This document shows positions 39,677 through 53,732 of a stretch of DNA of 64,000 nucleotides, piece after piece (the stretch's first letter is position 1; each line of letters starts with the position of its first letter). The position numbers were made by a program, and so were the translations under genes. A model generated the notes under the pieces. The model saw nothing but the letters and a program-made list of their open reading frames with translations, made no database searches and had not been told where the DNA came from. Source of the stretch: Calothrix sp. NIES-3974 (lineage in GTDB: Bacteria > Cyanobacteriota > Cyanobacteriia > Cyanobacteriales > Nostocaceae); NCBI RefSeq assembly GCF_002368395.1, contig NZ_AP018254.1:2294001-2358000 (forward strand). The letters are read 5' to 3'.

Positions 39677-39765
39677 GGCCAGGAAGAATATTGATTATGA
39701 AAGACGAAGAAACTGGGTAGGGGAAGTTGTAATTCCCAATATCAGCTTCTACCTCTTACCTCATT

Positions 39766-40632
39766 TTAAGACTTCAGTGCCGCTAACCAAGCGTCTAAAT
39801 CAGCCATGCTAGTAAAATCAAGCAATGCTTCACCGAGATTTTCTAATTCCTCCAGGGAAAGGGATTCAACTTGCGATCGCACGGGTTGTGGTAGTTCTCC
39901 TACTCGTCGGGTTAATTGACGCATAATTAGTTGACACGCTTCTGCTTTCCGTCCTTCTTTTCTTCCTTCTTTTCTTCCCTCTTCCTTAATTTCCCGATAA
40001 ACCCGTGTTTCTTTGAGTGTAATTCCCAACATTTGTTCTACCTCCCTTTGACTCTTACCTTCAAACTTGTACACCATGATTGTGGTAATTAGTTCTATGA
40101 TGGCACGATTTTCTGCTGGAGGTACTTCCTGTTGACTCCTTGTTAATAAATTCCTTGCTTCTGCGGTCGCACGATTTTCTTCTAGGGTTGTCAATACCAT
40201 CAATCCTACCCATACGGGTAACGAACGAATATCTCCGAGTTCATCCAGATATATCCGATGTACCTGGGGACTGTTGAGTTGACTCTGGTAAGGACTAATA
40301 TCTGTTTGTTCTAAGCTACGGGATGGGTAAATGATGACGATTTGCAAATTGCTGAATCTGTCACGGTTGCGATAAAAGTAGAGATAGGATTCGGCAAATA
40401 CCCTTTCGTATAGTCTTTCGTCCTTCTGAAATTGCACCTCACAGAAATACACCACACCTGGATTTTCGGTTTGCGGTGGTAGAAATACACCATCGATTTC
40501 AAATTTTGCTTCTTTAACTGCTACCGAATCAAATATGTACTCGTCTGCATTCGCAGGTGGATTTGTTAACAGGGCGAATAATAAACTGGGAGATTGCTGA
40601 AATAATTTGTAAAATATCGAATCTCGACGCAT
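39766..40632 (-). CDS. DUF2887/Rpn-like PD-(D/E)XK nuclease-transposase family protein, copy 1
   Basis: A 288-residue protein. The N-terminal nuclease-like domain has FEIDGVFLPP then VVYFCEVQFQKDERLYERVFAESYLYFYR, giving the D..ExQ core of the PD-(D/E)XK fold. The middle (AIIELITTIMVYKFEGKSQREVEQMLGI) and the C-terminal REIKEEGRKEGRKEGRK run, then QLTRRVGELPQPVRSQVESLSLEELENLGEALLDF, match cyanobacterial DUF2887/DUF4351 proteins. They are related to Rpn recombination-promoting nucleases. A near-identical copy lies directly upstream. Confidence 0.85.
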   Translation of the reverse strand: MRRDSIFYKLFQQSPSLLFALLTNPPANADEYIFDSVAVKEAKFEIDGVFLPPQTENPGVVYFCEVQFQKDERLYERVFAESYLYFYRNRDRFSNLQIVIIYPSRSLEQTDISPYQSQLNSPQVHRIYLDELGDIRSLPVWVGLMVLTTLEENRATAEARNLLTRSQQEVPPAENRAIIELITTIMVYKFEGKSQREVEQMLGITLKETRVYREIKEEGRKEGRKEGRKAEACQLIMRQLTRRVGELPQPVRSQVESLSLEELENLGEALLDFTSMADLDAWLAALKS

Positions 40633-40661
40633 TCAGGTTGGAAAATAGCAGCTTCACTATT

Positions 40662-41516
40662 TTAAGGGTTAAGTGCTGCTAACCATGCGTCTAAATCAGC
40701 CATGCTAGTAAAATCAAGCAATGCTTCACCGAGATTTTCTAATTTTTCCAGGGAAAGGGATTCAACTTGCGATCGCACTGGTTGTGGTAGTTCTCCTACT
40801 CGTCGGGTTAATTGACGCATAATTAGCTGACACGCTTCTGCTTTCCGTCCCTCTTCCCTTCCTTCTTCCTTAATTTCCCGATAAACCTGTGTTTCTTTGA
40901 GTGTAATTCCCAACATTTGTTCTACCTCCCTTTGACTCTTACCTTCAAACTTGTACACCATGATTGTGGTAATTAGCTCTATGATGGCACGATTTTCTGC
41001 TGGAGGTACTTCCTGTTGACTCCTAGTTAATAAATTCCTTGCTTCTGCGGTCGCACGATTTTCTTCTAGGGTTGTCAATACCATCAATCCTACCCATACG
41101 GGTAACGAACGAATATCTCCGAGTTCATCCAGATATATCCGATGTACCTGGGGACTGTTGATTTGACTTTGGTAAGGACTAATATCTGTTTGTTCTAAAC
41201 TACGGGATGGGTAAATGATGACGATTTGTAAATTGCTGAATCTGTCACGGTTGCGATAAAAGTAGAGATAGGATTCGGCAAATACCCTTTCGTATAGTCT
41301 TTCGTCCTTCTGAAATTGCACCTCACAGAAATACACCACACCTGGATTTTCGGTTTGCGGTGGTAGAAATACACCATCGATTTCAAATTTTGCTTCTTTA
41401 ACTGCTACCGAATCAAATATGTACTCGTCTGCATTCGCAGGTGGATTTGTTAACAGGGCGAATAATAAACTGGGAGATTGCTGAAATAATTTGTAAAATA
41501 TCGAATCTCGACGCAT
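40662..41516 (-). CDS. DUF2887/Rpn-like PD-(D/E)XK nuclease-transposase family protein, copy 2
   Basis: A 284-residue near-identical twin of the gene at 39766-40632, same strand, 29 bases apart. It differs by a handful of substitutions (SQI for SQL, LEK for LEE, ETQ for ETR) and by four fewer residues in the EGRK repeat run, a 12-bp copy-number change. Both reading frames are intact, with the same D..ExQ core. High identity, including non-coding flanks, points to a recent tandem duplication or gene conversion. Confidence 0.85.
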   Translation of the reverse strand: MRRDSIFYKLFQQSPSLLFALLTNPPANADEYIFDSVAVKEAKFEIDGVFLPPQTENPGVVYFCEVQFQKDERLYERVFAESYLYFYRNRDRFSNLQIVIIYPSRSLEQTDISPYQSQINSPQVHRIYLDELGDIRSLPVWVGLMVLTTLEENRATAEARNLLTRSQQEVPPAENRAIIELITTIMVYKFEGKSQREVEQMLGITLKETQVYREIKEEGREEGRKAEACQLIMRQLTRRVGELPQPVRSQVESLSLEKLENLGEALLDFTSMADLDAWLAALNP

Positions 41517-41607
41517 TCAGGTTGGAAAATAGCAGCTTCACTATTTTAAGGGTTAAGTGCTGCTAACCATGCGTCTAAATCAGCCATGCTAGTAAAATCA
41601 AGCAAAG
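41515..41607 (-). pseudogene. third, truncated copy of the DUF2887 gene 3' end
   Basis: About 92 bases repeat the spacer and C-terminal codons of the tandem genes (AAGTGCTGCTAACCATGCGT.. up to AAAATCAAGCAA), then identity stops at about 41606. Only the last ~20 codons are represented. It marks the edge of the tandem duplication. Confidence 0.75.
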
Positions 41608-41938
41608 CTGCTCTACGAGAAACTGCTAGTCTAACGGTATGGTTTTCGTCAATGTGTTTACACCCAGATACTTCTTTTGATAGATGACAAGTTTTCGTGT
41701 TTTTGAATTAATTATTGATATAATAGGATATCTTTAACTTATCAATAATAAGTAAAATAAAAGTATACGTAATAAAGCCTAAATAAATACATAACCCAAT
41801 TCCCGAATAATTTCAAAGAATAATTTCAAATTAGTTTCTGACAGCGAAAAAGCGACCATTAATAATTCTGCGGGGTGATGACTCCGCAGTTGAATGATTA
41901 GCGATTTTATTTTTATTGTCATATTCTGGAATCAGAAT
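41608..41938. other. AT-rich intergenic region
   Basis: Nothing recognised. TTATCAATAAT and ATTATTGATA inverted motifs near 41710-41750 are short. GCGGGGTGATGACTCCGC near 41869-41888 could form a small stem after the gene at 41939. Confidence 0.35.
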
Positions 41939-42619
41939 TTATTCACTTAAATTAGTCGAATTATTGCTGTTTAGCTGTTTGAGGGCGTAGTAGGCAACAG
42001 CTAGACTTACCCTAGCTTGGTCAATTTCTGTGAGTGAATTCCAATCGCGATCGCTAACTTTCTTCAACGCGGATGCTACTGGTTGGGGGTCTGTGGAGGA
42101 ATGATTTTCATCCCCATTACGCATGGCATAGGCAAAGGGTCGTGCTAACACCAACAAATCATCGGTTCCCCAATTAGGTAATACGGCATTGGCACACAAA
42201 GCTAATTGTTCTCCCAGGGTTTGTGAGGAATTAAATATCTCCGAGGCTTTCGCAGCAATCGTCTCCAGCCAACTTGGGGGTAAATCAACGGAACTAATTT
42301 TTTGTAAACTCGCCTTCAAATTAGCAATTATGTTTACATTTGTATTACAGTTGTGGTACTCTGAGGTTGGAAGTTGAGACCATAGGGAATCAAGGTGGTT
42401 GAAAAAGCTTTCAGCGCGGGAACTAAGTTCTGCTTGGAGGACATCATCCATGACAAAATTAGCTTCGTGGGCTGAGAAAAAATCTTCCGTTTCAATTTGA
42501 TTGGTATCCCAAGGATAGATGACATTTTCTTCGGTGGATAGTAGGGCATCGAGTAATTCTCTGTGAATTGCCGATTTTAGGTGTTGGGTATTTTTCGAGT
42601 TTTGATTAATGTTAGCCAT
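41939..42619 (-). CDS. unknown protein downstream of the CHAT-FHA gene, 226 residues
   Basis: No domain was recognised. It is soluble, acidic and predicted mostly helical (IHRELLDALLSTEENVIYPW..DTNQIETEDFFSAHEANFVMDDVLQAELSSRAESFFNHLDSLW). The second half contains LGEQLALCANAVLPNWGTDDLLVLARPFAYAMR and ends in a polar tail. It lies 219 bases after the CHAT-FHA gene on the same strand and is probably co-transcribed. It might be a regulator or substrate of that protein; this is inference from position. Confidence 0.7.
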   Translation of the reverse strand: MANINQNSKNTQHLKSAIHRELLDALLSTEENVIYPWDTNQIETEDFFSAHEANFVMDDVLQAELSSRAESFFNHLDSLWSQLPTSEYHNCNTNVNIIANLKASLQKISSVDLPPSWLETIAAKASEIFNSSQTLGEQLALCANAVLPNWGTDDLLVLARPFAYAMRNGDENHSSTDPQPVASALKKVSDRDWNSLTEIDQARVSLAVAYYALKQLNSNNSTNLSE

Positions 42620-42771
42620 TTTGCCTCCGGTTCGTGAACTAATCGAGTATTGAATTTAGTGGTATTGACAGCTACAGCAGTCAGAGATTGATTTCCGCAA
42701 ATAGAAACTAATTTTTGGTAATTATCCTGGAAATATTTTTGATTGATAGAATTTGGTATAGTAAAGCTCAA
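42577..42771 (-). CDS. possible small protein between the CHAT-FHA gene and its partner
   Basis: A 64-codon frame from a TTG, overlapping the next gene by about 43 bases (YFQDNYQKLVSICGNQSLTAVAVNTTKF..). No family or good ribosome binding site was seen. It may only be spacer. Confidence 0.2.
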   Translation of the reverse strand: MSFTIPNSINQKYFQDNYQKLVSICGNQSLTAVAVNTTKFNTRLVHEPEAKWLTLIKTRKIPNT

Positions 42772-42837
42772 AAATGATTAAATTTATCAATTAAATTTAC
42801 GAGTTGCAAAACAACCAAGATTACATCTAGATTACAT

Positions 42838-44418
42838 TTAAACTTTGCCAATGATAAATTCCCAGCCATCGCTACGGGGACTACCGAATTTTAACTGCAT
42901 ACCCGATTCAATTTTAATTTCAGTTTGGTGGATACGTTGCCAAGCACCGATGGAACCTGGGTGGGATATGTAGGTTCCGTAGGTAGAATCATCAATCAAG
43001 TAATATGTTTGAACAAAAGTGGTATCAGAAAAAGTATCACGACAGACAATTTTGGCATGATGTCGAGAAACGGATAAATCGGGGATGACAATATCATTTT
43101 CTGGAACTCTACCGATATGGGTGGTGCGTCCCTTTAATTGCCAAACTTTGTTGTCAGCAGATAGCGATCGCAAGATTGCATTTGGGGGTGGTAGTTGGTA
43201 TTCTGGGAGGAGATTTGAAGGTAGTTCGGTGACTGTTTCATCAAGGCTGCGTAGGATTTGACTGTTAAACTCTGGGTGTTGGTAAAGGACAGGTAAAGTC
43301 CAAGCGGGTTGATTAAAGCGGTAAATCGTCAGTAGTTGACGACGAGCTTCGGCTGTTGCTTCATCAATTGATTTACGCGATCGCAATGCTTGGGCAAAAG
43401 CTTGGATGAAGCACAAGCTTTCGGTATTGGCAATTTCGTCACGCATTCCTAATACTGCGGGAACCCCATGACGGATTAACACCTCAGCCAAACTACTGTA
43501 AGGGATAGATTGGTGGTTGATTGTTGCAGGTTGAGCACCCCAACAGGAATTAAATACAGCCAATTTCACTCCTGTACGGGTTAGCACCTGAGCTAGTTCA
43601 ATCCCACTCATTGTTTCACCGGGACTTAAAAATAAAACCCCCCCATTGGCAGCACGGGAACCATGACCAGCATAGAAGAGAACATTATAGTTGTTACTTT
43701 CCAACTCAGCAATTAATTTTTCTCGACTTGGTTGGATGAGGTGATGCACAAAACAAGGTGCATAACCGTAAGTACTGCTACCCATCCGTGAACCATCGGT
43801 GAGGGTTTTTTCTAATAAATCCGCTTCCGCATCCAAATTCAGATTTTCGTCTTCCCCCAAGACCAAAAGAATATTTAAACCGGGGTCAGTTTCCAGTTCC
43901 GGTAAAGGTTCCACATCACTAGTGGTACGGCTAAATAACATCTGTTGTCCCAGGGAAATCGCCGATTGTCCTGGGTTTTGCATAATTTCCCAGGGAATCG
44001 CTACCAAGGACGGGTCACGCAACTCCAAACAAACTCGCAACCGACTTTCTTGACCCATTGCAATTCCCCGACTGCGCTCCAAACTGCTGAGAATTGGTCC
44101 ATCAAACACCCATTGCCATAGTTGATTACCAAATAACTGCATCAACCGACCAGCATAATTACTTTGTGGACTACCGACAGCAGCAGAAGGCTCCCCAACT
44201 GGTTTGGGGGAATTGACATCACGGGGTGGTAGCATTCCCAAATTGCTATGATTAGCAAACCATTCTTGCCATTCTCGCCAAGTTTGTTCCATCTCTGGAG
44301 ACCAAATGCAATCATGAATGACATGGCCACTGGGATAGGGAGATTTTACCACCCAAATTGCGAAATTATCTGTACCAGCATTGACTAGACGGGCGATCGC
44401 CAAATTTAAGGATGGCAT
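42838..44418 (-). CDS. CHAT-domain (caspase-like) protein with C-terminal FHA domain
   Basis: A 526-residue protein. The CHAT protease domain spans about residues 130-400: NYNVLFYAGHGSRA holds the catalytic His (near 250) and VKLAVFNSCWGAQP the catalytic Cys (near 292); GVPAVLGMRDEIANTESLCFIQAFAQALRSRKSIDEATAEARRQL is the usual CHAT C-terminal part. The FHA domain (about 425-515) has IGRVPENDIVIPDLSVSRHHAKI, the phosphothreonine-binding GR..S..H motif. It lies 222 bases downstream of a PP2C phosphatase. Phosphorylation-controlled proteolysis is a reasonable inference. Confidence 0.85.
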   Translation of the reverse strand: MPSLNLAIARLVNAGTDNFAIWVVKSPYPSGHVIHDCIWSPEMEQTWREWQEWFANHSNLGMLPPRDVNSPKPVGEPSAAVGSPQSNYAGRLMQLFGNQLWQWVFDGPILSSLERSRGIAMGQESRLRVCLELRDPSLVAIPWEIMQNPGQSAISLGQQMLFSRTTSDVEPLPELETDPGLNILLVLGEDENLNLDAEADLLEKTLTDGSRMGSSTYGYAPCFVHHLIQPSREKLIAELESNNYNVLFYAGHGSRAANGGVLFLSPGETMSGIELAQVLTRTGVKLAVFNSCWGAQPATINHQSIPYSSLAEVLIRHGVPAVLGMRDEIANTESLCFIQAFAQALRSRKSIDEATAEARRQLLTIYRFNQPAWTLPVLYQHPEFNSQILRSLDETVTELPSNLLPEYQLPPPNAILRSLSADNKVWQLKGRTTHIGRVPENDIVIPDLSVSRHHAKIVCRDTFSDTTFVQTYYLIDDSTYGTYISHPGSIGAWQRIHQTEIKIESGMQLKFGSPRSDGWEFIIGKV

Positions 44419-44639
44419 GGATTTATAACACTAACAGCTAGAAGCAACTTTCAAATAGGCAAATAGAATATGCAAAACTCCATCTTAGTGTATCGGTTTT
44501 TGCGAAAATCTGTGCTGCCACAGAAGCCGAATTTCTCTTGATTTTACCAGCCAACGGTCAGTTGTGAACAGTTTAGTCGCCAACATGGGTGTTTCAACTG
44601 GTTGGGATGCAGGGGAAGAATAATTACCAGTAATTAAAT

Positions 44640-46982
44640 TTACAATCCTTGTTGGCGATCGCTTGTAACAGGTTGTTTCGGAATTAACTCTCCCTCCGTA
44701 GTACTTGACAATTTGCTACAAGGTGAATTACTGAGGTCAGCAGAATTTGAATAACTAACTTTGTTGACGAGTTTGTCGGAGGGAATAGATACTTTACTAC
44801 CCACATTTAATTTTGGCAAAGTAATTTCTGGGGGTTTGGAAACGGGTGGTAATGGGGGTATTTGACATATCTCCATGCTGAGGGTGTAGACTTGTTGGCT
44901 TGATTCTGGAGAGTCTTGTTCAAGTTTACGATCCAGGACTTTTAATACAGTTCCCTGGGGAAGAGTTACTGGGTAGGGGGAGGAGGGTGGATTTGTTGAA
45001 CTAACAGGGAGGAAATTGGCTTGCAGTTCGGTTCGGGTTTCTACCTGATATCCCGGTAAAATTTCTGGGGATGGGGAATTTAATGGTGTAGGGATGGTTT
45101 TTCCTGTGGTAGAAGGATTATTCGCGGGGGACTCGTTATTCTGGGAATTTAAGGGTGTTTGGGAACCTAGTGAAGAGGAAACAACCCAGTACACAGCCCC
45201 AGCTAACAGGAGAAACAGTGGTAAAATTAGCAAATAAAAGGGTATTTTCCGGGATTTAATTTGCACCGTATCTGGTAGGACTTGGGTACGTTGATTAGGG
45301 GTGGGATTGAGATTGACTGTGACATTGCTTTGTTTGTATTCGTTGGATGTTGCAGCAGCCAAACTGATTAATTGGGGGGAAATTGGCTCCGATGGTTCGG
45401 CATAATTAACTTGGTTACGGACGATGGCAACGGTGACATTATCATGACCATTCTGGGTATTAGCGATTTCCACCAACCGGCTAATTACAGTTCCAATATC
45501 CTTATTTTCGTTGATGATGGGTAAAATTTCCGTTTCCCAATTTTGTTCAACCCGGTCGAAATCACTCAAGCCATCCGAACACAGTAAAAATACGCAATCC
45601 TCATCCACGATAAATCTTTGGGCTGTAGGATGAAGGGAATTGCTCGAACCCATTCCCAAAGCCTGCACCAGGGAACCGGAAGCTGGTTGACTGACGGCAT
45701 CATGGTATAAAGCATATCCTAACCGTACCTCCCGCGATGCCACATCATCATCGATGGTGACTTGGTAGCAACCATGTTGGGTAATTAAGTAGGCACGACT
45801 ATCTCCCACATGGGTAATATACATTTCATGGGCAATCCCCAGAGCCATCACCAAGGTTGTACCCATGCGTTGTCGTCCGGAACGTTGTTCACTATCGTTG
45901 CGCTGACTGATTTTGTCGTTGGCAATTCCCGTAGTTGCTTCCAGGTCAGCTAACAGTAGATTGGGGTCGATGTGGTCGTAGCGAAAATCTGTTAACTGTT
46001 GCACCTGGGTTTGAATGGTTTCGATGGCTAAATTGGATGCCACATTCCCACCCTCATGACCACCAATACCATCACAAACAATTGCCAAGGCTTTTGATTG
46101 GGGGGGTTTGCGCAATCGAGTCCCACTGGGTGGATAGCAAGCATCCTCATTGCGTTGACGCTGGGGTCCGGTGTCGGTCTGGGTGATAATTTCTACATTC
46201 ACCGATTGGTGGCGACCGATTTCCTGTAAACCCCGATCTAACACCGCAACTAACTGTTCACCGGAATGGATTTCGCCATTGTCTAGGGATTGGCAAATAC
46301 CGTCAACAAAATTAGCGATCGCCTGTTGACATTTGTGTAATAAATGAACCCGCCAAAATTCACCTAAAGCTGCGAGTCGGGGTGGTTTTTCCCCGTCAGC
46401 ACGCAGTTGGAGAATGCGTAAAATTCCTCCCTCTGTCCGTAATAACAACGGATCTAATAAACTCGATACCACACCTTCACTCGCCAAGGGTTGCCATAGT
46501 TGGGCTATTTGCCACAACCAATGTAATTGTCGCATAGAGGAAGCCTGACCCCAAGCAGTATCAATGGATGGGTGCAATCGCACTTCCGTATCTCCATCCC
46601 GTAATTGCAGAGGCGGCTTTTCTAGTAAAATTATTTCCCGACGCTGGCCATTTTCCTCTAGCCACAACACTCCGTAAACCTGGGGAACGTGGAGACGGTA
46701 CGGAAACAGACGTAGATAGGGTCGGAGGGTTTGTAAATTGTCTAAATCGGGAATTTGGGGAAGTAAACCGGGTTTGCAGTCCAACAAAATCGATTGCTTC
46801 ACAACGTAGTAGCGATCGCCCAAAATCTCACCCGCATTGCCCACATTTTTGCCCTCTCCCACCCCCCATAAATAGCGCTGAGGTATGGGTGTGGAACATT
46901 GTTGACAAAATCTATTTGTCATCGGATTCGCTGCTTGACAAAGCTCATTTGGGCAGTAGACCGTTACCGCGTCTTTTTCCAT
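44640..46982 (-). CDS. PP2C-family protein phosphatase with zinc ribbon and membrane anchor
   Basis: A 780-residue protein. An N-terminal zinc ribbon (VYCPNELCQAANPMTNRFCQQC) leads to a ~230-residue region resembling a degenerate kinase-like or adaptor domain. The PP2C domain follows with its metal motifs: QRNEDA, VCDGIGGHEGG, GTTLVMAL, THVGDSRAYLI, LLCSDGLSD and HDNVTVAI. One membrane helix (FYLLILPLFLLLAGAVYWVV) and a Ser/Pro-rich C-terminal domain end it. The frame is open to 47153, but the first 57 residues look non-coding; ATG 46982 starts just before the zinc ribbon. Confidence 0.87.
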   Translation of the reverse strand: MEKDAVTVYCPNELCQAANPMTNRFCQQCSTPIPQRYLWGVGEGKNVGNAGEILGDRYYVVKQSILLDCKPGLLPQIPDLDNLQTLRPYLRLFPYRLHVPQVYGVLWLEENGQRREIILLEKPPLQLRDGDTEVRLHPSIDTAWGQASSMRQLHWLWQIAQLWQPLASEGVVSSLLDPLLLRTEGGILRILQLRADGEKPPRLAALGEFWRVHLLHKCQQAIANFVDGICQSLDNGEIHSGEQLVAVLDRGLQEIGRHQSVNVEIITQTDTGPQRQRNEDACYPPSGTRLRKPPQSKALAIVCDGIGGHEGGNVASNLAIETIQTQVQQLTDFRYDHIDPNLLLADLEATTGIANDKISQRNDSEQRSGRQRMGTTLVMALGIAHEMYITHVGDSRAYLITQHGCYQVTIDDDVASREVRLGYALYHDAVSQPASGSLVQALGMGSSNSLHPTAQRFIVDEDCVFLLCSDGLSDFDRVEQNWETEILPIINENKDIGTVISRLVEIANTQNGHDNVTVAIVRNQVNYAEPSEPISPQLISLAAATSNEYKQSNVTVNLNPTPNQRTQVLPDTVQIKSRKIPFYLLILPLFLLLAGAVYWVVSSSLGSQTPLNSQNNESPANNPSTTGKTIPTPLNSPSPEILPGYQVETRTELQANFLPVSSTNPPSSPYPVTLPQGTVLKVLDRKLEQDSPESSQQVYTLSMEICQIPPLPPVSKPPEITLPKLNVGSKVSIPSDKLVNKVSYSNSADLSNSPCSKLSSTTEGELIPKQPVTSDRQQGL

Positions 46983-47738
46983 AGTTTTCGCTACCAAGGC
47001 ATTAGTAACTCTTTCTAATGTATCTATAAATCGTGACGGTGATGAGGCCGTACACCGATAATTTTTTGAGCAAGCTGGTACTCGATACATCCTAATATTT
47101 TGGATCGCAATTCGCCCATCAGCATATAACGGGAAGCAAAAGTTTTGCCCCAAGTGCCCAAAGACTTATATACTAAGTCAACCTCTTCCCAGCATCAAGT
47201 CCGTTGGTTACGATTTGCTCACTACTTTATCGATTTAATATGTTTTAGTGGTAGGAAAAAGTCATTTTTTCATATTTTTCAGATAATGTTAGCGAAAAAA
47301 TCCGCATTCAGCACCTAATAGTCTATCTCCTCACTTCCCGTGTCTACGCTGAATGTGCTAAACCCGCATTTCTCACAAAACCCTAAAACTCATGGGGAAT
47401 AGGGAGTAGGGAGTAGGGATAGTCCGTAGAAGGAAAATCAATCCGTTACTCCAAGCTTACAACCTACTCGTGAGAAATCCAGGTAAAGCAGGGGATGCTG
47501 GGGGAAATATTTTTTTCACATACTTCAAACTGGTTAATAAGTAGGTAGGTGCAATTAAACATAAAACCGCAACGTAACCAATCATTCGGCGTAGAGATAA
47601 CCCGACGGGTCGTCTCTACGGACTATCGCGATTGGAAAAGATGAAGTGGCAAAGGCAAAATTTTCCAGATAAAATATCAAAACAATGGGGTGATCGACAA
47701 AAATCAACTGTGAAAACGCCTCTGGAAGATTCAAGCAG
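46983..47738. other. divergent intergenic region with MITE-like family A copy 4
   Basis: Lies between the divergent PP2C and 396-residue genes. It holds family A copy 4 (47359-47487) and a dispersed hairpin at 47592-47622. Promoters of both genes should be here; none is clear. Confidence 0.45.
47359..47487. repeat. MITE-like repeat family A, copy 4
   Basis: 129 bp from AACCCGCATTTCTCAC to GTGAGAAATCCAGGTAAA, same orientation as copy 3 and with the same internal TAGAAGGAAAATCAATCCGT segment. Confidence 0.65.
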
Positions 47739-48929
47739 TTGATTGCCCTGTTCCAACCTGATGCACAACAATTCGCTTCACAAATTATGCAGCATATCGA
47801 TAAACTCCTTGTCACTGAGAATTCTAACTTGGCTTGGGTATTACGATTAGGGTTGTTGGGGTTGCGGACCCAACTGCAACAAGCACGAAATCAAGCAACT
47901 GTTTCTGACCCAGGGATTGAAAAGTGTGATGCACTGCTGCGGGAATTGGATGTGATGTTAGAACCAAATTCGTCTATTAGTTCATCTATTCAATCTGCGA
48001 CACCAAAACCTCTACAATGGGAAGATGTATTTGAACCCGTTGCCTCTGATTTTCAACTTGCATCCTTGGCAATGACCCTAAAATCCGATCCAGAGTTAAA
48101 ACCATATATCGGTGAGTATGAGTTTGCCAGCGATAATGATGGTGATTTGTGGAATGAAATTCAACGCTTATTGTTACGATTACCGGAACGTTTGGTGTTA
48201 ATTTGGCGCAGACGCTTGCAAGAAATCTTACCAACCCTGGACACCCAGGAGGACACCCAAACCCGCAAGCTCCTACCTTTTACCCGGAGCGAATTAATTT
48301 ACCCTGGTTTAACGGGAAAAATTCAAACTTCAGGATTAGCCCTGTCAGATAAAATTGCGATCGCACCTCAATTACTCAAATCCAAATCCAGTTCTGATAC
48401 GGATATCGATTTTCTCGCGGCGGTGGTATCTACTTGTCTCAAATTTATCCAACTGGATGCCCAACTTTTCCATGTCCTCAAAAGTGTCGATCGCTTTGGC
48501 ATTCGCCCTGTCCATACAGAACCAGAACGTTCTAAATACGCCACTGCCCTGATTGAAAGATTTCGTCGTGTTCAATCTACTACCCACAGCACTGACCCCG
48601 CAGTCACTCTACGTGCCCGTCTTGACCTGGATGAGGCAATCCACTCCCTAGTTTACATGCCACCCTGCGATCGCTATTCCTGGTGGGGTAAACTCCAAGG
48701 AGAAGCCCGTCGTACCCTCGATCCGGTCATCGAACGCACCCGCAACGCTGGATACCAAATCCAAATACGTCCGCTATGGGGAACATATGCGGACGTTTAC
48801 ACCTGGTCTAAGGATGACCTACAAATCAACTGTGGTGGTGTACCCGGTGAAGTGGCTGCCTGTTTGCGGGTTTACGCGAAAATCAACGACGAAGTTTTAC
48901 CGGGAAGGGTTTTATTTTATGCAGCCTGA
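47739..48929 (+). CDS. unknown protein divergent from the PP2C gene, 396 residues
   Basis: No domain recognised. Soluble; the N-terminal third is helical (PDAQQFASQIMQHIDKLL..), the middle has DDGDLWNEIQRLLLRLPERLVLIWRRRLQEILP, and the end is a conserved-looking block (DRYSWWGKLQGEARRTLDPVIERTRNAGYQIQIRPLWGTYADVY). The only upstream start in the open frame is TTG 47739; the next ATG is at 47787. Its position facing the PP2C/CHAT-FHA genes suggests a common pathway, without proof. Confidence 0.65.
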   Translation: MIALFQPDAQQFASQIMQHIDKLLVTENSNLAWVLRLGLLGLRTQLQQARNQATVSDPGIEKCDALLRELDVMLEPNSSISSSIQSATPKPLQWEDVFEPVASDFQLASLAMTLKSDPELKPYIGEYEFASDNDGDLWNEIQRLLLRLPERLVLIWRRRLQEILPTLDTQEDTQTRKLLPFTRSELIYPGLTGKIQTSGLALSDKIAIAPQLLKSKSSSDTDIDFLAAVVSTCLKFIQLDAQLFHVLKSVDRFGIRPVHTEPERSKYATALIERFRRVQSTTHSTDPAVTLRARLDLDEAIHSLVYMPPCDRYSWWGKLQGEARRTLDPVIERTRNAGYQIQIRPLWGTYADVYTWSKDDLQINCGGVPGEVAACLRVYAKINDEVLPGRVLFYAA

Positions 48930-49124: not shown

Positions 49125-49895
49125 TTACGAATTACGAATTTGTCCTTCCCTTCTAACTGTTTGAACTTCCACATGGGTATTGAGTTCGGCTTCGTTAGTT
49201 GAACGTAGTCGCGGTGTCACCCCGAAAGCACCTGTCTGTCCCCTAGTTTCCAAACCGTTTTCTGGAACTTTCTTTTCCCGCTCAATGTCTACCCTAATTT
49301 CCTCTAGATCGATGAAAAAGTCGGCCACATTGACCAAACTTTCACTGGTCATCGAACTCAAACTCACCACTTCTACCTGCACCCCTTGATAGGCGATGGA
49401 ATTGACTGCATAGGCTAAATCCCCATCTCCACTCAACAGGACAATGGTGTCACAGTTCCGTGCTAGGGTTAACATATCCACCGCAATTTCCACATCCAGG
49501 TTGGCCTTTTTAGAACCATCGGGAAACTGGATTAACTCCTTGGTGACGACCCGATAACCATTGCGACTCATCCACAACAAAAAGCCTTGCTGCTTTTCGT
49601 TGCCACTGTCACAGGCTGTATAAAAATAGGCACGGATTAATTGCCGGTCTCCCGTTAATCGTCGCAGTAATTTGGCGTAATCTACTTCCAAATTTAACTG
49701 CATGGCGGCGTAAAATAAATTTGCCCCATCAATAAAAATCGCCACGCGATCGCGCTCATCAAGTAAACGCCTTCTTCGCTGCTGTGATGCTTCCATTTTG
49801 TCCAGCACCTTTAGCCTTCGTGGTTCCAACGACTGTTCTGCTTCCAATTTCAGACGAGTTTCCTGATTCATCTGAGGTCGTGGATGTAGCTGCAT
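49125..49895 (-). CDS. NYN-domain protein, LabA-like (DUF88)
   Basis: A 256-residue protein. The NYN/PIN-like RNase fold is clear: VAIFIDGANLFYAAMQL (first Asp), KKANLDVEIAVDMLTLA (second pair), IVLLSGDGDLAYAVNSIAYQGVQVEVVS (GDGD) and NVADFFIDLEEI. A charged 45-residue extension precedes it. Members include LabA of Synechococcus, which affects clock output; RNA cleavage is predicted from the fold. The final residues (GQIRNS) come from a dispersed ATTACGAATT repeat, so the native end may have been changed. Confidence 0.87.
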   Translation of the reverse strand: MQLHPRPQMNQETRLKLEAEQSLEPRRLKVLDKMEASQQRRRRLLDERDRVAIFIDGANLFYAAMQLNLEVDYAKLLRRLTGDRQLIRAYFYTACDSGNEKQQGFLLWMSRNGYRVVTKELIQFPDGSKKANLDVEIAVDMLTLARNCDTIVLLSGDGDLAYAVNSIAYQGVQVEVVSLSSMTSESLVNVADFFIDLEEIRVDIEREKKVPENGLETRGQTGAFGVTPRLRSTNEAELNTHVEVQTVRREGQIRNS

Positions 49896-52977: not shown

Positions 52978-53732
52978 TCATTCAGCCGACTTACTTAAAG
53001 GAGTCTCCCCACTTAAGCAGAGGTCGTTCTGTCCACAAGCTTTAGATTCTGTGCGTCCCACAGTACTTTTTAATCCTTTGTTCAAAATCATAGTCGCCGC
53101 GTTATGGTCACGGTGCATCACTGCACCACAACAATGACATTTGTGGGTACGAGTGGACAAAGATTTCTGAACTCGTGTCCCACAAACAGAACAATCTTGC
53201 GATGTGTAGTGAGGTGCAACTGCTATCACCCAAGTATCAAAAACTTTGCCATAGTAGTCTACCCAATCAGTGAATAGTGACCATGATGCGTCACTAATGG
53301 ATTTAGCTAAATGATGGTTTTTAACCATATTTCGCACCTGCAAGTCCTCATAAACTACCAAGTCGTTTGACTGGACTAGAGTTCTTGCTGTCTTCACAGC
53401 AAAATCTTTCCTCTGTCTACTTACCTTGAGATGCTTTTTCGCCAACTTTTTAACAGCTTTACGGCGATTAGAAGAGCCTTTTTTACATCTAGAAACTTTG
53501 CGTTGTTTGCGTTTCAAAGACTTCTCAGACTTACGCAAAAATCTGGGATTTTCGACTGCCTTGCCATCAGAATCAGTGTAGAAAAACTCAAGTCCTACAT
53601 CAATTCCTACTTGTTTACCATTGTGCTGATGCTGTTCTTTGCGTTCCGCATCAACACAAAATTGGCAGTAATAACCATCTGCTCGTTTAACTACTCTAAC
53701 TCGCTGAATTTGCTTAGTAGAATAAAAGCTTA
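52978..53732 (-). pseudogene. tnpB: IS605-family TnpB remnant, 5' part lost at an IS5-type insertion
   Basis: About 250 C-terminal residues of an RNA-guided TnpB nuclease. Present: FYSTKQIQRVRVVKRADGYYCQFC, RuvC-I Asp in GIDVGLEFFYTDSDG, Glu in VVYEDLQVRNM, zinc finger CSVCG..CHCC, and RuvC-III Asp in HRDHNAATMIL. The catalytic residues thus survive, but the N-terminal REC/wedge part is missing: the frame is broken at 53733 by the IS5-family element, and past that element only a few codons fit before a CRISPR repeat. No TnpA is seen. Confidence 0.88.

Follow-up and report, generated by a model that had tools for sequence, protein, structure and literature searches.

Three adjacent minus-strand genes of the cyanobacterium Calothrix sp. 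NIES-3974 encode a PP2C phosphatase with a predicted membrane helix, a protein combining a CHAT protease domain with an FHA domain (CHAT-FHA) and a predicted all-helical protein of 226 amino acids (p226). They lie in a window of 64,000 nucleotides, the whole stretch of DNA analysed, from the complete 5.99-Mb genome (G000:C1:2294001-2358000). PP2C, CHAT-FHA and p226 are a conserved cyanobacterial gene row. The chances are about even that the three genes encode a protease module that regulates cyanobacterial cell division or differentiation and resembles HetF-PatU-HetZ in its construction. This estimate was slightly higher before the FHA residues and the co-occurrence margins were re-checked. 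New here are the HetF kinship of CHAT-FHA, the similarity of p226 to PatU and the tracking of HetZ-related protein 2.

The original prediction had described four open reading frames (ORFs), with an intact CHAT His-Cys dyad, an FHA domain, a PP2C phosphatase and a helical p226. The ORF list, Pfam, alignment and predicted structure confirmed these features, and all four ORFs are present at their coordinates and on their strands:

41939-42619, minus strand: p226, all-helical PatU-like protein by prediction, 226 amino acids (aa), with an N-terminal YPWNP-type motif and a PatU-like C-terminal part (about residues 108-216)
42838-44418, minus strand: CHAT-FHA protein, 526 aa, nearest CHAT relative of HetF in the genome
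43249-44133, minus strand: CHAT protease domain, about residues 96-390 (Pfam and NCBIfam), with the dyad H252 (43663-43665) and C292 (43543-43545)
42883-43149, minus strand: FHA domain, about residues 424-512 (Pfam)
44640-46982, minus strand: PP2C phosphatase with a predicted membrane helix, 780 aa from a conserved Met58, possibly PrpJ-like
46206-46823, minus strand: kinase-like fold in the predicted structure, after the zinc ribbon and before the PP2C domain (about residues 111-316 of the 837-aa ORF); read as a pseudokinase
45417-46163, minus strand: PP2C catalytic domain (Pfam, NCBIfam and motif residues)
45174-45242, minus strand: predicted membrane helix after the PP2C domain (hydropathy; position approximate)
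47739-48929, plus strand: 396-aa protein, taken as outside the module by locus comparison

The listed PP2C ORF (44640-47153) starts at TTG. Its relatives begin at or near its Met58, which gives a gene of about 44640-46982. Pfam recognised CHAT (1.8e-19, residues 96-367) and FHA (1.7e-13, residues 434-512) in CHAT-FHA and PP2C_2 (2e-10, residues 331-535) in the phosphatase, where a zinc ribbon stayed below the threshold (0.015). p226 and the 396-residue protein matched no Pfam family up to 0.1.

All 33 aligned sequences, that of the window among them, retain the dyad of CHAT-FHA, as do 59 of 59 in a wider set. The dyad aligns with the His and Cys of HetF from the same genome (31% identity over 309 aa), and the expected alignment with a CHAT protein of reported protease activity was obtained. 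The identity of this HetF is confirmed by 1330.8 bits against a cut-off of 1200. Among the CHAT proteins of the genome, HetF is the top relative of CHAT-FHA with 121 bits, and the next-best CHAT reaches 47. The best NCBIfam model for CHAT-FHA is also HetF (NF045509 equivalog; 3.2e-43), which matches residues 96-411 only and with 148.1 bits stays far below the full-length cut-off of 1200 bits. A tree of CHAT domains grouped HetF and CHAT-FHA apart from five other CHATs (100/99), with long-branch warnings. The closest named record is an uncultured Calothrix metagenome-assembled genome (MAG; L009), with 99% identity over CHAT-FHA.

HetF is a CHAT protein with reported protease activity and is able to cleave PatU3, according to a review (PMC12288457). 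Its reported layout has a membrane helix and a TPR region after the CHAT domain. These were not found in CHAT-FHA, for which Pfam up to 0.1 gave FHA and no TPR. We propose from these comparisons that CHAT-FHA belongs to the HetF type of cysteine proteases, with FHA replacing the membrane and TPR half. The literature search found no paper linking a CHAT domain, an FHA domain and a phosphatase. The one paper obtained for FHA and caspase-like CHAT proteins in cyanobacteria concerns an RNA-targeting restriction family and, judged by its title, has no bearing on the module, and the main text of a study of 473 cyanobacterial orthocaspases mentions neither FHA nor HetF.

Profile comparison detected a remote but reciprocal similarity between p226 and PatU. 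The gene patU is described behind hetZ in many filamentous cyanobacteria, and in Anabaena 7120 it is divided into two genes, patU5 and patU3; PatU3 binds HetZ (PMC7377430). Outside p226, the p226 profile gave three weak matches in 242 genomes of the class (G225, G217 and G020; 4e-5 to 3e-4), each in a 323-332-aa ORF immediately downstream of a HetZ-like gene. The neighbour in G225 scores 656 bits with the HetZ model (cut-off 550). A fourth weak row covers 41 residues (G156:C63). In the opposite direction, a profile of three PatUs matched 59 of 116 genomes, one of them (G003) solely via p226. Beyond the PatU loci, its 14 weaker rows (6e-6 to 9e-4) all fell on p226 genes.

Searches of a pool of 1613 ORFs, in which the fetched p226 and PatU loci were included, agreed with this. 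After p226 itself, the p226 profile ranked PatUs next, from 1.7e-6, and the first ORF of neither family followed at 0.023. The PatU profile ranked p226s next after PatU (21 of 22 rows, 1.6e-8 to 0.94; three of the 21 are copies of the window's gene or of that of the near-identical MAG); the other row was an ORF of a PatU locus. The comparison of p226 with three PatUs by hhalign gave probabilities of 89.8 and 94.5, and a 33-row PatU alignment gave 77; none of 28 control families exceeded 2.6. The YPWN or similar motif of p226 corresponds to FPWE in 28 of 30 PatU ORFs. The 226 aa of p226 compare with 323-390 aa for 28 of the 30 extracted PatU ORFs. The genome has its own PatU (1572700-1573686) beside HetZ (1573676-1574863); p226 is instead located behind CHAT-FHA. 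The helical prediction for p226 has a mean pLDDT (predicted local distance difference test) of 69, with residues 111-160 at 83-89. Its best VIA-align match, lambda Q with Z 7.0, is in a range that the tool calls common, the best PDB profile match is at 0.058, and Pfam gave scattered weak matches on 25 p226s (best 0.0046, in one member).

Gene order and co-occurrence were compared in 42 related loci, several of them short contigs, and in the 242 genomes. Of these loci, 28 have p226 behind CHAT-FHA and 22 have PP2C ahead of it. In the genomes, the p226 profile at 1e-3 matched 117, of which G020 (3.4e-4) was dropped as really a PatU behind a HetZ-like gene, leaving 116; CHAT-FHA at 1e-80 also matched 116. 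The co-occurrence of both is nearly perfect: 115 genomes have both, one has each alone and 125 have neither (phi 0.98). The only genome with CHAT-FHA and without p226, G182, has a contig that stops about 140 bases past CHAT-FHA. The only reverse case is G037 with PP2C, p226 and FHA-PrsW in a row. Here CHAT-FHA has decayed to a C-terminal remnant of about 50 codons (L082:3693-3851) between intact PP2C and p226, a natural loss. In 94 of the 115 genomes, p226 directly follows CHAT-FHA in the same orientation. The other 21 keep the two genes non-adjacent: three on one contig at 0.55-1.13 Mb distance (G005, G155 and G190) and 18 on different contigs, some perhaps by assembly breaks. In at least 83 of 116 genomes, PP2C is the immediate upstream neighbour of CHAT-FHA. 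CHAT-FHA is a single locus per genome at 1e-80, split in two pieces in two genomes.

Co-occurrence had been expected for all four gene families. It held for p226 with CHAT-FHA, and PP2C adjoins CHAT-FHA in most of the CHAT-FHA genomes; the 396-residue gene fell out. It was found in one of the 42 loci, the near-identical MAG locus L009 (flanks of up to 10 kb, some short contigs), has no plasmid match at 1e-3 and was thereby ruled out as a module member. It is taken as a chance neighbour. Scans with Pfam, NCBIfam and PADLOC assigned it to no family.

Loci of Phormidium (L050) and Microcoleus (L033) have PP2C, CHAT-FHA and p226 all together. We know of no heterocyst formation in these two, so the role of the module is probably wider than heterocysts.

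HetZ-related protein 2 was present in 116 of the 242 genomes at 1e-40. It occurs with p226 in 113 genomes, with three exceptions each way (phi 0.95), and with CHAT-FHA in 112, with four each way (phi 0.93). HetZ plus HetZ-related proteins, searched with one model at 1e-40, were present in 124 genomes and reached phi 0.89 with p226 and 0.90 with CHAT-FHA. The pair tracks HetZ-related protein 2 slightly better. Discriminating genomes are G007, G014 and G037, where p226 and HetZ-related protein 2 are present and HetZ and HetZ-related proteins gave no match, and G019, G020, G036, G050, G064, G075 and G086, with HetZ or HetZ-related and neither p226 nor HetZ-related protein 2. In G007 and G014, CHAT-FHA, p226 and HetZ-related protein 2 occur together where no HetZ, HetZ-related or PatU match was obtained, and a candidate ancestral role is offered on this basis. 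Exceptions are G128, G200 and G227 (p226 without HetZ-related protein 2) and G010, G093 and G122 (the reverse); four of the six genomes are 62-93% complete. In family f26, the HetZ-related protein 2 matches stop between positions 226 and 325 of 367, as if the C-terminus were lost; these genomes retain p226, except G122. No paper on a 'HetZ-related' protein in cyanobacteria was found in the literature.

The active-site residues of the PP2C phosphatase are intact: its PP2C motif residues are invariant in 16 of 16 aligned PP2Cs. A hydropathy peak of at least 1.8 follows the PP2C domain in 43 of 43 PP2Cs with a tail. The Thr before this membrane helix is invariant in the 16 aligned sequences. Among 43 PP2Cs, the juxtamembrane Thr motif is present in 29, nearly present in one and absent in 13, and as a general FHA docking site it was rejected; it is kept as a clade-level idea only.

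Between zinc ribbon and PP2C, the predicted structure of ORF residues 58-322 (model mb3f4a5a64a7f) has a kinase-like fold. The mean pLDDT is 78.9, with 61-69 in the N-lobe and mostly above 80 in the C-lobe. VIA-align found Z of at least 8 for 995 of 1000 chains (best Z 12.2, root-mean-square deviation 4.0 over 178 residues) and Z 10.8 to the intracellular domain of Rv3910. The sole Foldseek match below 0.001 was PknG (6.5e-4). The motifs HRD, DFG and GxGxxG are each found in 0 of 16 proteins, and the region is read as a pseudokinase. Pfam and PDB profile searches with the region returned no kinase, and hhalign against the FHA kinase of the genome matched only the zinc ribbon; the kinase-like assignment rests on the predicted structure with its N-lobe pLDDT of 61-69. 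The main text of a paper on bacterial pseudokinases does not mention PP2C.

Among the five PP2C hits of the genome is one close paralogue of the same layout (649 aa, 504 bits; next 192 bits). With PRK14559 (NF011149), the module PP2C scores 272 bits, below the cut-off of 374. The true PRK14559 member in the genome (854.6 bits) adjoins an FHA kinase. PrpJ1 and PrpJ2 are reportedly PP2Cs of Anabaena PCC 7120, and a paper title gives the plasma membrane as the location of PrpJ. Mutation of prpJ (all1731) reportedly leaves cells without the major heterocyst glycolipid and unable to fix nitrogen in air. The module PP2C possibly belongs to the PrpJ family.

A mechanism can be modelled on PatU3, a protein that binds HetZ and holds it in check. 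In this scheme, p226 would be the PatU-like partner of CHAT-FHA and most likely its substrate; its suggested role as regulator or target gains support from the PatU similarity. It may restrain HetZ-related protein 2, which would be released after cleavage of p226 by CHAT-FHA. The membrane PP2C could erase a phosphothreonine mark through which CHAT-FHA is recruited or activated. Such phospho-gating is plausible because the PP2C motif residues are intact and Gly, Ser, His and mostly Arg are kept in the FHA domain (58, 56, 57 and 51 of 58 ungapped rows). The kinase writing the mark would be encoded elsewhere in the genome; Pfam detected none among the eight window proteins scanned. A candidate writer is an FHA/zinc-ribbon/Ser-Thr kinase at about 3.20 Mb, which has HRD and DFG motifs and is located next to another PP2C.

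Several observations weigh against this module. The FHA Arg is lost in 7 of 58 rows. FHA domains usually have an Asn before Gly-Thr, which is kept in 2 of 58 only, so phosphothreonine binding by this domain is not assured. The likeness of p226 to PatU is remote and spans about 100 residues, and the hhalign probability dropped from 94 to 77 with more PatUs. p226 has no confident fold match, and Foldseek gave none at 0.001. The best PP2C is located elsewhere in 20 of the 116 CHAT-FHA genomes, and 13 have none among the matches listed; Chamaesiphon loci have CHAT-FHA without PP2C or p226 in the fetched flanks. For CHAT-FHA, the margin in favour of HetZ-related protein 2 is small (phi 0.93 versus 0.90). 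The discriminating genomes span five families only, and the exceptions G128 and G122 are 99 and 100% complete. All genes concentrate in the same lineages, and shared ancestry inflates the correlations. No published experiment on these proteins was found.

p226 could instead be a stable adaptor or inhibitor subunit of CHAT-FHA, with the protease cutting another target and the phosphatase timing complex formation. The near-strict pairing and the usual downstream position of p226 fit a complex as well as a substrate, and PatU3 itself is reported to work by binding HetZ. The decay of CHAT-FHA in G037, where p226 and PP2C are retained, indicates that p226 can have a job without the protease. However, HetF and PatU3, the nearest characterised pair, are reported as protease and substrate (PMC12288457), and the adaptor reading is rather unlikely.

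It is clearly improbable that the genes, as part of the core of complex cyanobacteria, share nothing more than a phylogenetic history and act in no common pathway. The concentration of p226, CHAT-FHA, HetZ plus HetZ-related proteins and HetZ-related protein 2 in the same genomes would be expected from such a history. But p226 and CHAT-FHA agree genome by genome except for the contig end and the decayed gene described above, and p226 is mostly the direct downstream neighbour. The widespread FHA-PrsW (PF13367, 128 bits), which faces p226 from downstream in 22 of the 42 loci, agrees far less with the module genes (phi 0.27-0.29 across the genomes). It was ruled out as an obligate member on these values, though often adjacent.

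A stress-induced cell-death or anti-phage system with CHAT-FHA as executioner, as the original prediction had proposed, is very improbable. CHAT proteases act in known defence systems, but the PADLOC matches are weak and partial (0.0046, the best for CHAT-FHA, and 0.018), and neither 72,556 plasmid records (1e-20) nor 50,697 phage records (1e-5) gave a match; a defence or mobile-element origin was rejected on these results. CHAT-FHA is also a single locus per genome, with HetF and other division and differentiation proteins as its nearest relatives.

Other features surround the module. Directly behind p226 are two near-identical tandem genes of the DUF2887/DUF4351 kind (39763-41609; Pfam on the first) with a third partial repeat, of which 67 nucleotides were found, representing a recent amplification. 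An NYN-domain (LabA-like) protein (49125-49895) adjoins the 396-residue gene, and an ORF at 52978-53538 resembles a TnpB-type transposon protein by eye. In many related loci, the region upstream of PP2C (L010:5576-7349 and equivalents) encodes a protein of 117 aa, whose family occurs in 18 loci, and a phytase-like esterase, present in 11. Calothrix NIES-4105 has a second CHAT-FHA (L014:9446-11575) with an N-terminal extension of about 180 residues; its fetched flanks contain neither PP2C nor p226. One gene separates this second CHAT-FHA from a 442-aa ORF that is CHAT-like by eye.

On the preferred reading as a regulatory protease module, a wider picture is tentative and somewhat doubtful as a whole. 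Duplication may have produced two parallel circuits, HetF-PatU-HetZ and a phosphorylation-gated CHAT-FHA/p226/HetZ-related protein 2. In the latter, a PrpJ-type phosphatase would sense a ligand or protein via its kinase-like domain, joining Ser/Thr phosphorylation to caspase-like proteolysis. To our knowledge, HetF-PatU3 is the one known caspase-like protease-substrate pair tied to bacterial cell differentiation. A true module would be a second pair, encoded beside a phosphatase and carrying a domain of the phosphothreonine-reader type, and would assign a function to p226 and to HetZ-related protein 2. It could also explain the entry of membrane PP2Cs into heterocyst regulation, provided that the PrpJ link is correct.

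Among known systems, the PRK14559 phosphatase shares zinc ribbon and PP2C with the module phosphatase; unlike the latter, the PRK14559 member ends after PP2C. The intramembrane protease FHA-PrsW is a second FHA protease, often facing p226. In contrast to the module genes it is loosely associated (phi 0.29) and is unlinked in the genome of the window. PrpJ1 and PrpJ2, compared by titles only, resemble the module PP2C in the membrane helix predicted by hydropathy and in the single close paralogue of the same layout; we know of no link between PrpJ and a CHAT protease. The closest system is HetF-PatU3-HetZ of Anabaena PCC 7120. The module has FHA where HetF is reported to have its membrane and TPR half, and usually includes a PP2C in its row. 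Its protease and PatU-like genes are usually neighbours, whereas patU is described behind hetZ, and p226 is shorter than PatU. Both systems have a CHAT protein with an aligned dyad and a PatU-like partner, and a HetZ-family protein tracks the pair across genomes.

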